64,000 nt of DNA from Abyssibacter profundi (GTDB lineage Bacteria; Pseudomonadota; Gammaproteobacteria; Nevskiales; OUC007): NCBI RefSeq assembly GCF_003151135.1, contig NZ_QEQK01000002.1, forward strand, positions 156,972 through 220,971. The letters run 5' to 3'. Position numbers and translations under genes: made by a program. Below are positions 25,573-29,872 of the stretch, in pieces. Every line of letters starts with the position of its first letter. Position 1 is the first letter of the stretch. Below the pieces are notes generated by a model. The model was not told where the DNA came from and made no database searches. It was given only the letters and a program-made list of their open reading frames with translations.

Positions 25573-26049
25573 ATGACAACAACCACCGCATCCTCGACTC
25601 CAGCCAGCCCGTCTTTCGATGTGCCCGATCCGTACGTCGAGGTCCGGCGGGTGGGTGAGGCCGATATCGATCGACTCGGACACACGAACAATGTGGTGTA
25701 TCTCGGATGGCTGGAGGCAGTGGCCTGGGCGCATTCCGAAGCACTCGGTCTGGACTGGGCGCTGTACCAACGCATTAATGCGGCGTTCGTGGCGCGTCGC
25801 CATACGTTGGATTATTTGCGCGCCACCCATGTGGGCGACGAATTGCACATTGCGACGTGGATTGCAGCCAACCCGGGGCGTGCGACCATGGACCGGGCGT
25901 ATCAGATTATTCGGGCCGCAGATGGCGTGACCGTGCTACGCGGCACAACGCAATGGGCCTGCGTGGATCTGCAAACCGGACGCCCGCGGCGCATGCCTCC
26001 AGAATTCGCTCAGGGCTTCAAGGCCGTTGCGACACAGGACCCGGACTAA
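25573..26049 (+). CDS. acyl-CoA thioesterase, 4HBT (hot-dog) family
   Basis: A 158-residue hot-dog fold protein of the YbgC/FadM type. The catalytic-loop motif is EADIDRLGHTNNVVYLGWLE (D-x-x-GHxNN), followed by RRHTLDYLRATHVGDELHIATWI. Such enzymes hydrolyse acyl-CoA thioesters; the substrate cannot be read from the sequence. It diverges from the suf operon and its 3' end overlaps the convergent hydrolase gene by 4 nt. Confidence 0.85.
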   Translation: MTTTTASSTPASPSFDVPDPYVEVRRVGEADIDRLGHTNNVVYLGWLEAVAWAHSEALGLDWALYQRINAAFVARRHTLDYLRATHVGDELHIATWIAANPGRATMDRAYQIIRAADGVTVLRGTTQWACVDLQTGRPRRMPPEFAQGFKAVATQDPD

Positions 26050-26585
26050 GGCGAAACGGCGTCCGTGCCGGCGACCAGGCGCGTCAGAAACCGATCGAAT
26101 AACTGCTCGATGAGCGGCAGGGCGTCGATCAGGCGATGACTGTCTTGAACCAGGTGCAATTCGGCTTGGTGCGTTTGCGCAAAGCGAATGGCCGACGCGG
26201 GCGGGATGATGTCGTCCTGCCAGCCATGGACCACGGCGCTGTGTCTGGGGATGCCGCTGGGTTCCTCGTCGAAACCCGGGTAGTAAAGCGCAGGGGCCAG
26301 CAGAAACAAGCCATTCGGTTGCAGGGCCTCACAGGCATGAGCGCTGACATAGCCCCCCATGGATGAGCCGCAAAGCACCAGCTGCTGCGCGCGCGGAGCC
26401 AGCGCACGTAGCTGGTCGACGCGGGCCTGGGGGTCTTGCGTGTGCCGGTAGTCGGGGCTCTCGACAGCGAAATGGTGCTGGCGTGCAACCTCGGCCAGGG
26501 CTTGAATCTTGGTGCCCCAGGGGCCGCTTTCCATGCCGTGAGCAAAGACGACGAGACGGTCCGTAGGCTTGGGTACTGTTGGCAT
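26046..26585 (-). CDS. small alpha/beta hydrolase
   Basis: A 179-residue serine hydrolase. The N-terminal VVFAHGMESGPWGTKIQAL supplies the oxyanion loop. The nucleophile is Ser75 in CGSSMGG, the acid is Asp124 or Asp125 in HGWQDDIIP, and the base is His150 in QDSHRL. It resembles YqiA/dienelactone-type esterases, but the substrate is unknown. The stop overlaps the thioesterase end by 4 nt (convergent). It diverges from a small unknown gene at 26627. Confidence 0.8.
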   Translation of the reverse strand: MPTVPKPTDRLVVFAHGMESGPWGTKIQALAEVARQHHFAVESPDYRHTQDPQARVDQLRALAPRAQQLVLCGSSMGGYVSAHACEALQPNGLFLLAPALYYPGFDEEPSGIPRHSAVVHGWQDDIIPPASAIRFAQTHQAELHLVQDSHRLIDALPLIEQLFDRFLTRLVAGTDAVSP

Positions 26586-26626
26586 GGCTCGAAGTTTGGG
26601 CTGGGATGCAGTCTAATCAGGCTGTC

Positions 26627-26914
26627 ATGGCGAGAACGAAGGCACAACGCAATCCCGAGCGGCTCGATATCCGTATGAGCTTTACCGTGCGGTACGGCGA
26701 GGAGCCGGACGACCAGCTGGTGGTCATGAATGAGCGACCGCTGAAGCTTGTGGGCAGCGTGTTCCGTTATCGCGACAAGATCATGCAGACGTTGGCATCG
26801 ACCTTGGTCAAGGTGGCCTTGCTTCAGCCCAAGGTTGCCAAGCGTGTGGTCGGTACGACACGCAAGGCAGGTCGGCGAGGGGCGCGTCGCACGCCGTCCG
26901 AGCGTCGTCGCTAG
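26627..26914 (+). CDS. small basic protein of unknown function
   Basis: A 95-residue protein I do not recognise. It starts MARTKAQRNPERLDIRMSFTVRYGEEPDDQLVVMNERPLK (quoted in part), has a moderately hydrophobic helix-like middle, and ends in an Arg/Lys-rich tail (TTRKAGRRGARRTPSERRR). The basic tail suggests nucleic-acid or membrane-phosphate binding, an inference only. ATG 26627 has AGG 7 nt upstream; an in-frame ATG at 26579 would overlap the divergent hydrolase gene. Confidence 0.5.
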   Translation: MARTKAQRNPERLDIRMSFTVRYGEEPDDQLVVMNERPLKLVGSVFRYRDKIMQTLASTLVKVALLQPKVAKRVVGTTRKAGRRGARRTPSERRR

Positions 26915-26986
26915 TCCCACCGCAGACGGAGGGCACTGACGCCAACCGCTGCACTGCTGTTTTCAGAATTCGGAAATGCAGGTCCC

Positions 26987-27274
26987 ATGCGTTACCTCTA
27001 CTACCTGAACTGCGCCATGATGGCGCTCTCGGCCGTGCTAACCGTCGTGCTGGCCGTGGTTTGTCTGATCTACGTGCTGTACCTCGGACGTGAGCCCCAG
27101 TTACAGCAGGAACTGCGGCTGCTGTTCGTGACCACGGGCTTGTTCGGTGTCATGACCGCCGGTGGCGTGGTTGCCGTGCTCGGCCAGCACCGCGGTCGGC
27201 CCTGGCACTGGGGCGGTTTGCTGATCTGGTCGGGCACTCTGGCCTTGACGCTAAGTCTGTTTGCGCCGGCCTGA
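26987..27274 (+). CDS. small inner-membrane protein, three predicted helices
   Basis: A 95-residue hydrophobic protein with membrane segments at about 8-32, 44-64 and 74-92, separated by short charged loops (LGREPQLQQELR and GQHRGRP). I do not recognise the family. It ends 2 nt before the membrane-anchored hydrolase at 27277, so the two are very likely co-transcribed and may act together. Confidence 0.65.
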   Translation: MRYLYYLNCAMMALSAVLTVVLAVVCLIYVLYLGREPQLQQELRLLFVTTGLFGVMTAGGVVAVLGQHRGRPWHWGGLLIWSGTLALTLSLFAPA

Positions 27275-27276
27275 CA

Positions 27277-28725
27277 TTGGACACGGTACTGATTCATCGA
27301 GCGCGTCAGTGGCGCGCGATCCCTGCCATCCTGGCGGCATTGATCTGGTTGGTCCTGTCACTGCAGGCAGCGCTGTGGGGCGCCGTACTGCTGGTGCCGG
27401 TTGCACTGTTGCTGGTCACGGGCAGTACCAGTGCCTGGCTCCACGCAGGTGACAGCCGGCCGCATCAGCTCATGGCCATTGGAAGCGTGCTGGGGGTGGT
27501 GTTGCTGCCGTTTGCGGGCTGGGCACTGGGGTGGTGGGCCTGGCTGCTTGCCGGGCTAGCTGTGGGGATCCTGCTGAGCTCCGGGTGGCTGGCGACGGTG
27601 GAGCAGCTACGCCCGGCGGGGGTTCCGAATCCGCCGGCCAGCATCGCGCTGTCGGCTAAGGTGGCATTGGATAACGCCTTGCTGGGCTATTTCGTAGGCA
27701 CGGCCCAGATTCCCGGTCCCGGCAATGCCCATCGCATCGCCCGTGAAATGATCGACGCTGATGCCCTGATGCGGGCGCGGGGATGGATCACCAATCCGGC
27801 CCAGTTTCACCGGGCACCGCCGCTGCCCTCGGATGTGAGCAGCCGGCAACGCAGGGTGATGGGGCAATCCTTTGTGCATTTACGCTGGACCAGCGGGTTT
27901 CAGCCGCATGCGGGGCTACCGGCCGCCGCTCGCTACATGGCGCATGACGGCCCCCGGCACATGCATGCCTGGATGCTGCAGCATGATGATGGACCCAGGC
28001 CTTGGTTGATTGCGATCCACGGGTATCGGATGGGAGTGCCGGGCATCGATTTGTCGCTGTTCTCGCCCCGGTGGTTGCACGAGCGTCTGGGACTGAACGT
28101 GCTGCTGCCGGTGCTGCCGCTACATGGACCACGTCGCATCGGCCGGCGGAGCGGCGATGGTTATCTCGGCGGCGAGTTTCTTGATCTGGTCCATGCACAA
28201 ACCCAGGCACTGCATGATCTCAGGGCTTCGGTACACTGGCTCAAGCAGGTGCAGCAGGCCGAGCGCATCGCGGTGCTGGGCTACAGCCTCGGTGGTTACA
28301 ACGCTTCGCTACTGGCGACCTACGAGGCCGAGCTGGACTGCGTGATTGCCGGGATCCCGCTTGCCGACGCCGCTGACGTGCTCTGGCGACATTTTCCCGT
28401 GTTGCCCAGGCGATCCATCGAAGCGCTGGGTGTGACCGAAGCCATGATGCGGGGTGTGATGCATCCACTGTCTCCGCTGGCTAGACCGTCGATGATTCGC
28501 TCGGACCGCTGCGCGGTGTTCGGTGCGGTTGCGGATCAGCTCGTGCCGCCGGCTCAGGTGCAACGGCTGGCCGCACACTGGGGACTGGACGCACCGACGT
28601 GGTACCGCGGGTCGCACCTGAGCGTGCGCCGCGAGGCGCTCGCCCGGTACGCAGTGGAGCGCGCATTGCTGGCGGCAGGAATGGTTGATCGGGAAGACAC
28701 CGCGCCTCGGCCGCTGATCGGATAG
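27277..28725 (+). CDS. alpha/beta hydrolase with N-terminal membrane domain
   Basis: A 482-residue protein. The first 120 residues contain about four membrane helices; a soluble alpha/beta hydrolase domain follows from about residue 220 (LIAIHGYRMG). A full catalytic triad is visible: Ser337 in GYSLGGYNAS, Asp420 in GAVADQLVPP and His447 in GSHLS. The TTG start at 27277 is forced by the preceding stop, and no ATG or GTG lies near. It is followed 28 nt later by a FabH-like gene, so a lipid or acyl substrate is plausible but unproven. Confidence 0.75.
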   Translation: MDTVLIHRARQWRAIPAILAALIWLVLSLQAALWGAVLLVPVALLLVTGSTSAWLHAGDSRPHQLMAIGSVLGVVLLPFAGWALGWWAWLLAGLAVGILLSSGWLATVEQLRPAGVPNPPASIALSAKVALDNALLGYFVGTAQIPGPGNAHRIAREMIDADALMRARGWITNPAQFHRAPPLPSDVSSRQRRVMGQSFVHLRWTSGFQPHAGLPAAARYMAHDGPRHMHAWMLQHDDGPRPWLIAIHGYRMGVPGIDLSLFSPRWLHERLGLNVLLPVLPLHGPRRIGRRSGDGYLGGEFLDLVHAQTQALHDLRASVHWLKQVQQAERIAVLGYSLGGYNASLLATYEAELDCVIAGIPLADAADVLWRHFPVLPRRSIEALGVTEAMMRGVMHPLSPLARPSMIRSDRCAVFGAVADQLVPPAQVQRLAAHWGLDAPTWYRGSHLSVRREALARYAVERALLAAGMVDREDTAPRPLIG

Positions 28726-28753: not shown

Positions 28754-29872
28754 ATGACTCAAATCGTGATTTCCGGGACGGGGCTCTACACCCCGCCTGA
28801 ATCGATCAGCAACGAAGAACTGGTCGAGTGCTTCAACATCTGGGCGACGCGGTATAACACCGAACATGCCGAGGCGATTGCTGCTGGCAAGGTGGAACCC
28901 AAACCCCTCTCCAACGCGGAATTCATCGTCAAAGCCTCTGGCATCCGCAGTCGGCATGTCCTGGATAAGAAGGGCATCCTCGACCCTGAGATCATGCGGC
29001 CGCAGCTGCCCACCCGCGGCAATGATGAACCCTCGCAGATGTGCGAGATGGCCGTGGCCGCCGCGCGTGAGGCCCTGGCCGAGGCGGGCCGTGAACCAGC
29101 AGATGTCGACGCCGTGCTGTGCGCCGCGTCCAACATGCAGCGCTCATACCCCGCGGTCGCCGTGGAGATTCAGCACTATCTCGGCTGCGGTGGTTATGCC
29201 TATGACATGAACGTGGCCTGTGCCTCGGCCACCTTCGGCATTCAGGCTGCCGTGGACGCGCTGAGTGCCGGACACGCTCGCTGTGTGCTGATGGTGAATC
29301 CCGAGATTTGTTCAGGCCACCTGAATTTCCGTGATCGCGATAGCCACTTCATTTTCGGGGACGCCTGCACCGCGGTGGTGCTGGAGCGCGCGGATGATGC
29401 GCGCGATGGCGGCTTCGAGGTGATCGGCACCCGTCTCAAGACCCATTTTTCCAGCAATATCCGTAACAACGCGGGCTTTCTGAATCGGGCAGAGATCACG
29501 CCGCGCTCCGCAGATGACCGGCTGTTCATCCAGGAGGGGCGACGTGTGTTCAAGGACGTCGTGCCGATGGTGGTGGAACTGATCGGCTCGCATCTTGGCG
29601 CGCATGATCTGGCCCCTGCCGAAGTGCGACGGTTCTGGTTGCACCAAGCCAATCTCAACATGAATCAGCTGATCAGCAAGCGCTTGCTGGGTCGTGAGCC
29701 CAGTGATCAGGAAGCGCCGGTCGTGCTGGATGAGTACGCCAACACCAGCTCCGCTGGTTCTGTCATCGCTTTCCATAAATACAAGAGCGGCCTGGCTGCA
29801 GGCGACGTGGCCGTGCTCTGCGCGTTTGGCGCGGGCTACTCGGCCGGTTCCGTCATTCTGCGACAGCGCTAA
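28754..29872 (+). CDS. beta-ketoacyl-ACP synthase III-like enzyme (PA3286 type)
   Basis: A 372-residue thiolase-fold condensing enzyme. The triad is Cys156 in MNVACASATFG, His297 in FWLHQANLN and Asn330 in DEYANTSSAG. The NFRDRDSHFIFGDACTAVVLE stretch and the overall length resemble the Pseudomonas aeruginosa PA3286 enzyme, which shunts octanoyl-CoA from beta-oxidation into fatty-acid synthesis, rather than housekeeping FabH. Substrate preference here is inferred from that similarity. It lies between the membrane hydrolase and pepN. Confidence 0.85.
   Translation: MTQIVISGTGLYTPPESISNEELVECFNIWATRYNTEHAEAIAAGKVEPKPLSNAEFIVKASGIRSRHVLDKKGILDPEIMRPQLPTRGNDEPSQMCEMAVAAAREALAEAGREPADVDAVLCAASNMQRSYPAVAVEIQHYLGCGGYAYDMNVACASATFGIQAAVDALSAGHARCVLMVNPEICSGHLNFRDRDSHFIFGDACTAVVLERADDARDGGFEVIGTRLKTHFSSNIRNNAGFLNRAEITPRSADDRLFIQEGRRVFKDVVPMVVELIGSHLGAHDLAPAEVRRFWLHQANLNMNQLISKRLLGREPSDQEAPVVLDEYANTSSAGSVIAFHKYKSGLAAGDVAVLCAFGAGYSAGSVILRQR

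Follow-up and report, generated by a model that had tools for sequence, protein, structure and literature searches.

The 64,000-nucleotide stretch of the Abyssibacter profundi genome analysed here (the window; assembly GCF_003151135.1, contig NZ_QEQK01000002.1, positions 156,972 to 220,971) carries a block of four genes on the same strand that encode, in this order, a small basic protein (basic), a small membrane protein (mem), a membrane-anchored α/β-hydrolase (hyd2) and a β-ketoacyl-ACP synthase III of the PA3286/FabW type, with a smaller hydrolase gene (hyd1) oriented divergently at the flank. These are the two hydrolases, two small proteins and FabH-like gene that had been recognised from the letters alone in the original prediction, and all five lie where it had placed them. 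Abyssibacter belongs to the order Nevskiales in the GTDB naming used here and to the Oceanococcaceae, Chromatiales, in the NCBI taxonomy. In window positions, the features are:

26627 to 26914, plus strand: basic, first gene of the block, a 95 aa protein with a pI of 11.6 and 24 K/R residues
26987 to 27274, plus strand: mem, a 95 aa three-helix membrane protein (hydropathy, profile search)
27277 to 28725, plus strand: hyd2, a 482 aa serine α/β-hydrolase with a four-helix membrane anchor and a TTG start (AlphaFold2 model, triad, structure match)
27310 to 27603, plus strand: the four membrane helices of hyd2, residues 12-29, 33-55, 60-84 and 87-109 (DSSP on the model)
28285 to 28287, plus strand: nucleophile Ser337 of hyd2, in GYSLGGY
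28534 to 28536, plus strand: Asp420 of hyd2
28615 to 28617, plus strand: His447 of hyd2, in GSHLS
28754 to 29872, plus strand: PRK07515 (PA3286/FabW-type) β-ketoacyl-ACP synthase III (NCBIfam, 621 bits against a cut-off of 304)
26046 to 26585, minus strand: hyd1, a small divergent α/β-hydrolase resembling UPF0227/YqiA (Pfam UPF0227, 39.6 bits against a cut-off of 21)
25573 to 26049: thioesterase-like gene upstream of the block (4HBT_2, 64.7 bits)

The AlphaFold2 model of hyd2 (mean pLDDT 92.9) shows an α/β-hydrolase fold with a Ser-acid-His triad, anchored by four helices. The intact Ser-Asp-His triad of a membrane-anchored hydrolase, as originally proposed, is borne out by an alignment of 35 relatives, in which Ser337, Asp420 and His447 are each invariant (35/35), as is the HGYRMG stretch. 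Lysine and arginine residues are distributed unevenly around the helices, whose ends were set by hand, with on average 2.0 per protein before helix 1 and 1.09 between helices 2 and 3 as opposed to 0.03 in the other two loops. By the positive-inside rule this assigns the N terminus, like the loop that joins helices 2 and 3, to the inside, and the catalytic domain is thus predicted to be cytoplasmic. No curated family in Pfam or NCBIfam accommodates hyd2 beyond a marginal score against Peptidase_S9 (PF00326), which it barely passes (23.2 bits, cut-off 22.6) and which reflects the shared core only; membership of Peptidase_S9 was rejected, as the model contains neither a propeller nor any other S9 N-terminal domain. 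Its scores against ABHD18 (PF09752; 12.6 bits, cut-off 21) and against RcgR (NF047337), a putative quorum-lactone hydrolase (22.7 bits, cut-off 182), are below threshold. hyd2 represents a new type of member in a very large superfamily, its four-helix anchor being unusual.

The conservation of the block was followed in 61 Nevskiales genomes and in a set of 61 loci, comprising the window and 60 further regions, around which mem and basic were located by hidden Markov models (HMMs), that for mem having been grown from mem itself. The nearest named hyd2 loci are those of an Abyssibacter metagenome-assembled genome (MAG; 73% identity) and a Salinisphaerales MAG (75%). A hyd2 protein search matches all 61 genomes, and the membrane type is present in 60, being cut by a contig end in G007. 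The remaining genome, G060, contains only a distant soluble relative (L110) that is not an orthologue and that lies just downstream of an open reading frame (ORF) resembling, by eye, TesB-type acyl-CoA thioesterases. mem adjoins hyd2 in 56/61 loci, the misses being L076, L079, L080, L096 (at a contig end) and L110, and the synthase lies directly downstream of hyd2 in 54/61. The linkage of mem to hyd2 across genomes, on which the original prediction had made any shared function depend, therefore stands, and the predicted co-occurrence with a PA3286-type synthase is likewise found, the PRK07515 cut-off being passed in 54 of the 61 genomes. The seven genomes without the synthase are four of family f4, in which mem and hyd2 are retained, two of g15, and G060, from which basic, mem, membrane-type hyd2 and synthase are jointly absent. 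basic is found upstream of hyd2 in 37/61 loci, and the conserved order in Nevskiales is basic, mem, hyd2 and synthase. As this arrangement recurs in dozens of genomes it is not due to chance.

Spacing within the block varies between genomes. In the window mem ends, stop codon included, at 27274 and hyd2 starts with its TTG at 27277, which gives the 2-nt gap noticed originally, and in several genomes the stop codon of basic overlaps the start of mem. Eight loci (L088, L089, L092, L098, L099, L101, L104 and L108) have a further gene between mem and hyd2 which by eye resembles NADPH-dependent FMN reductases. In some genomes of genus g11 basic lies away from mem and hyd2 (G049:C31, G054:C5, G059:C205 and G015:C5), and basic can therefore travel separately from the pair. 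Two small genomes of 2.0-2.5 Mb, G025 and G035 (loci L079 and L080), keep a diverged hyd2 and have neither WS/DGAT nor mem, basic or a FabW-type synthase. A joint loss of mem and of the hyd2 membrane helices at these two loci was considered and rejected, since the frame read further upstream contains the helices and their apparent absence is a start-codon artefact.

Both small ORFs are, judging by substitution rates against two congeners, under coding constraint, with dN/dS values of 0.12 and 0.13 for basic and of about 0.30 and 0.16 for mem. Neither protein matches a Pfam or NCBIfam family above cut-off, and profile searches against solved structures returned nothing convincing (best E 0.1 for basic and 0.11 for mem); the AlphaFold2 model of basic is poor (pLDDT 65.8). 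The three hydrophobic stretches of mem span residues 13-31, 46-64 and 77-95, and by charge bias, for which the helix ends were again placed manually, the protein is predicted to run from an inside N terminus to an outside C terminus. The 56 mem sequences share no invariant column, so mem bears no catalytic signature.

Outside the order the association loosens. Among 80 named hyd2 loci compared for mem and synthase as neighbours, mem is found at 58, and the other 22, mostly from Deltaproteobacteria, Myxococcota, Binatia and related MAGs, have no synthase within the stretch examined either. Within Nevskiales, too, L076, L079 and L080 have hyd2 but no mem. The original suggestion of a two-part membrane enzyme acting on lipids or acyl esters thus survives in part: fold and lipid context make a membrane acyl-ester enzyme the best reading, whereas an obligate two-protein enzyme is rejected on the strength of the 22 loci where hyd2 stands without adjacent mem or synthase, of the three Nevskiales loci without mem and of the eight in which a further gene separates the two. 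On these patterns mem is best seen as an order-specific accessory that is linked, under selection, fast-diverging and dispensable outside the order, and not as an obligate half. Some of the genes that adjoin hyd2 in other groups belong to lipid metabolism, namely members of a PlsB-like acyltransferase family in L118, L147, L171 and L172 (a member being identified in L171) and FadE-type acyl-CoA dehydrogenases in L144 and L151 (identified in L144); further neighbours include unrelated transporters, an SDR enzyme, a trypsin-like protein and others.

A stronger functional clue than the block itself is WS/DGAT (PF03007), the wax ester/triacylglycerol synthase, which is encoded outside the window. 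It is present in 59/61 genomes of the order, the exceptions being G025 and G035. In a class sample of 369 genomes, which holds about two independent hyd2 lineages, membrane-type hyd2 occurs in six genomes and weaker partial relatives in two more; WS/DGAT is found in 21 of the 369, comprising all six genomes with membrane-type hyd2 as opposed to 15/363 others. In a second phylum sample (188 genomes, the phylum of G612), where at most eight first-pass candidates per genome were scored and the membrane type was defined by E up to 1e-130, WS/DGAT accompanies hyd2 in 30/31 genomes compared with 52/157 of the others. Both comparisons were assessed by Fisher tests in which shared ancestry is ignored. 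WS/DGAT was also found in 15/20 non-gammaproteobacterial genomes behind named hyd2 loci; the set of 26 genomes used for this includes two duplicates with identical matches (G609 of G287, G614 of G171).

Soluble relatives of hyd2 are in turn physically coupled to WS/DGAT genes. Tight same-strand pairs of hydrolase and WS/DGAT occur in at least five loci (L213-L217) from delta-type genomes and involve two hydrolase clades. The hydrolase gene ends 8, 6 and 11 nt before the WS/DGAT gene in L213, L214 and L215, whereas in L216 and L217 the two genes overlap by 4 nt at the WS/DGAT start. Further relatives are divergent to WS/DGAT in L218 (93 nt), L219 and L212 (1.1 kb away). These counts are lower bounds among the matches listed, and an estimate based on rounded genome sizes would have about 0.57 hydrolase-WS/DGAT pairs fall within 1.5 kb by chance. 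The WS/DGAT partners of L212-L217 show a visible HHxxxDG motif, those of L218 and L219 do not. In the tree the WS/DGAT-linked hydrolases fall in three separate places, and the group of L212-L215 lies inside the half that holds membrane-type hyd2 (support 100/100).

The synthase that closes the block matches PRK07515 over residues 1-371 and retains the catalytic Cys156 (CAS), His297 (HQAN) and the asparagine of the ANTS motif (at 329), so that the downstream acyl-condensing enzyme originally proposed appears with its catalytic residues in place. In the excerpted text of PMC4549310, RSp0194 (FabW) is described as preferring octanoyl-CoA and PA3286 as condensing octanoyl-CoA derived from β-oxidation.

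At its flanks the block is bordered upstream by hyd1, the thioesterase-like gene, an Rrf2 regulator and a SUF cluster, and downstream by pepN. In most Nevskiales loci hyd1 points away from the block, of which it forms a conserved flank; it scores only 21.9 bits against the YqiA equivalog model (cut-off 252). The end of the thioesterase-like gene overlaps the end of hyd1, and this gene often precedes the block in other loci as well.

Taken together, the fold, the triad, the charge bias, the co-occurrence with WS/DGAT, the coupling of soluble relatives, the lipid-related neighbours and the octanoyl-CoA preference of FabW lead to a reading to which slightly less than an even chance is given, namely that hyd2 acts as a serine esterase of the inner membrane in the neutral-lipid metabolism of WS/DGAT-bearing bacteria, with mem as its accessory and the synthase re-using the chains. 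Anchored by its four N-terminal helices, the catalytic domain would face the cytoplasm and there hydrolyse acyl esters by the ordinary Ser-Asp-His mechanism. Its likeliest substrates would be triacylglycerol, diacylglycerol or wax ester, reached at the surface of the membrane or of lipid droplets. In Nevskiales mem could serve hyd2 as an anchor, a regulator or a substrate guide. The released chains would enter β-oxidation and yield medium-chain acyl-CoA, which the FabW-type synthase may re-use, thereby returning a part to synthesis. A bolder extension, which is on balance doubtful, is that hyd2 founds a new family of storage-lipid lipases, with a four-helix form and dedicated mem partner in Nevskiales and soluble forms coupled in translation to WS/DGAT in delta-type phyla, and that together with the FabW-type synthase it turns stored fat into new membrane lipid.

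Several observations weigh against an esterase of neutral lipids. The two WS/DGAT copies of the window genome lie on contig 7 and hyd2 on contig 2, without adjacency; the coupled relatives have no membrane helices, and among the matches listed adjacency is seen for soluble relatives only. WS/DGAT occurs without hyd2 in 15 of the 21 class genomes that bear it, G025 and G035 show the reverse, and five of the 20 hyd2 genomes from outside the Gammaproteobacteria show none, in genomes that come without completeness figures. (WS/DGAT) The disregard of shared ancestry in the Fisher tests counts on the same side, and the nearest solved enzymes of known substrate are acetyl esterases.

The enzyme might instead be a phospholipase or lysophospholipase of membrane turnover resembling ABHD18, in which case its link to WS/DGAT would be indirect, the released chains feeding storage lipid. 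ABHD18 deacylates cardiolipin, according to the excerpted text of PMC12173737; 13/35 hyd2 relatives match its Pfam profile with E up to 0.01, one of which, L070, exceeds the cut-off (30.0 bits versus 21), and the PlsB-like neighbours in delta-type genomes would suit such a role. However, the match in L070 covers the nucleophile elbow only (profile positions 161-203 of 351), the window hyd2 itself is under the cut-off, and phospholipids are universal, yet hyd2 is found in only 6-8 of the 369 class genomes and tracks WS/DGAT. A search with the Pfam ABHD18 profile in 200 genomes of the phylum gave four weak matches, a number that does not suffice to compare profiles. The phospholipase reading is rather unlikely. 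That the substrate of hyd2 is a lactone, or the thioester of acyl-CoA or acyl-ACP, in place of a storage-lipid oxygen ester is very improbable: 31/35 relatives match RcgR with E up to 0.01 and a thioesterase-like gene lies upstream, but the window protein itself stays far below the RcgR cut-off and no signal synthase was seen among the genes examined around hyd2.

A different kind of explanation is that the genes of the block are functionally independent and held together merely by the slow decay of gene order within one order. This would accommodate the relocation of basic, the interruption of mem and hyd2 in eight loci, and the fact that pepN and the divergent hydrolase are likewise conserved neighbours. 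Against it count the joint absence of the four genes from G060 and the overlap of basic and mem, which make it unlikely; the coupling to WS/DGAT concerns relatives outside the block and is unaffected by it.

The synthesis of wax esters and triacylglycerols by WS/DGAT is well studied. To our knowledge the enzymes that degrade these stores in Gram-negative bacteria are poorly known, and hyd2 is a candidate for this missing enzyme of bacterial fat turnover. The family provides a concrete candidate in that it tracks WS/DGAT in two distant groups and has soluble relatives in coupled gene pairs, and hyd2 loci exist in the cultured Solimonas flava, Hydrocarboniphaga effusa, Fontimonas thermophila and Salinisphaera shabanensis. 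No earlier description of the block was found among the papers listed in a limited set of searches, which included wax-ester hydrolases, Hydrocarboniphaga, Abyssibacter lipids and the FabH of Salinisphaera and Solimonas.

Among known systems, the acetyl xylan esterases and cephalosporin C deacetylase of carbohydrate esterase family 7 (CE7) share the α/β-hydrolase fold of hyd2 (Z about 23). CE7 enzymes are soluble sugar deacetylases. They differ from hyd2 in having no lipid context, the identity is 11-14% in most aligned rows, and no CE7 profile is among the Pfam and NCBIfam matches listed for hyd2. ABHD18, a mitochondrial cardiolipin lipase, is comparable as an α/β-hydrolase of membrane lipid. 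PA3286 and RSp0194 are covered by the same NCBIfam model as the downstream gene, although, unlike in the block with hyd2, no hydrolase partner of RSp0194 is mentioned in the excerpted text of PMC4549310. The marine sediment WS/DGAT clusters (PMC10351704, in excerpt) include, according to an annotation-level remark, a Woeseia-related scaffold with WS/DGAT and an α/β-hydrolase. The best fold match to hyd2 is the uncharacterised α/β-hydrolase of Ruminiclostridium thermocellum, PDB 4z8z (Z 31.6, rmsd 2.7, 305 residues), which also shows a detectable sequence relation that includes the LP-x-H--R stretch; the stretch of 4z8z matched by hyd2 is not assigned to ABHD18. Its crystal chain differs in being devoid of the four-helix membrane anchor, and through hyd2 this uncharacterised fold gains a possible biological setting.

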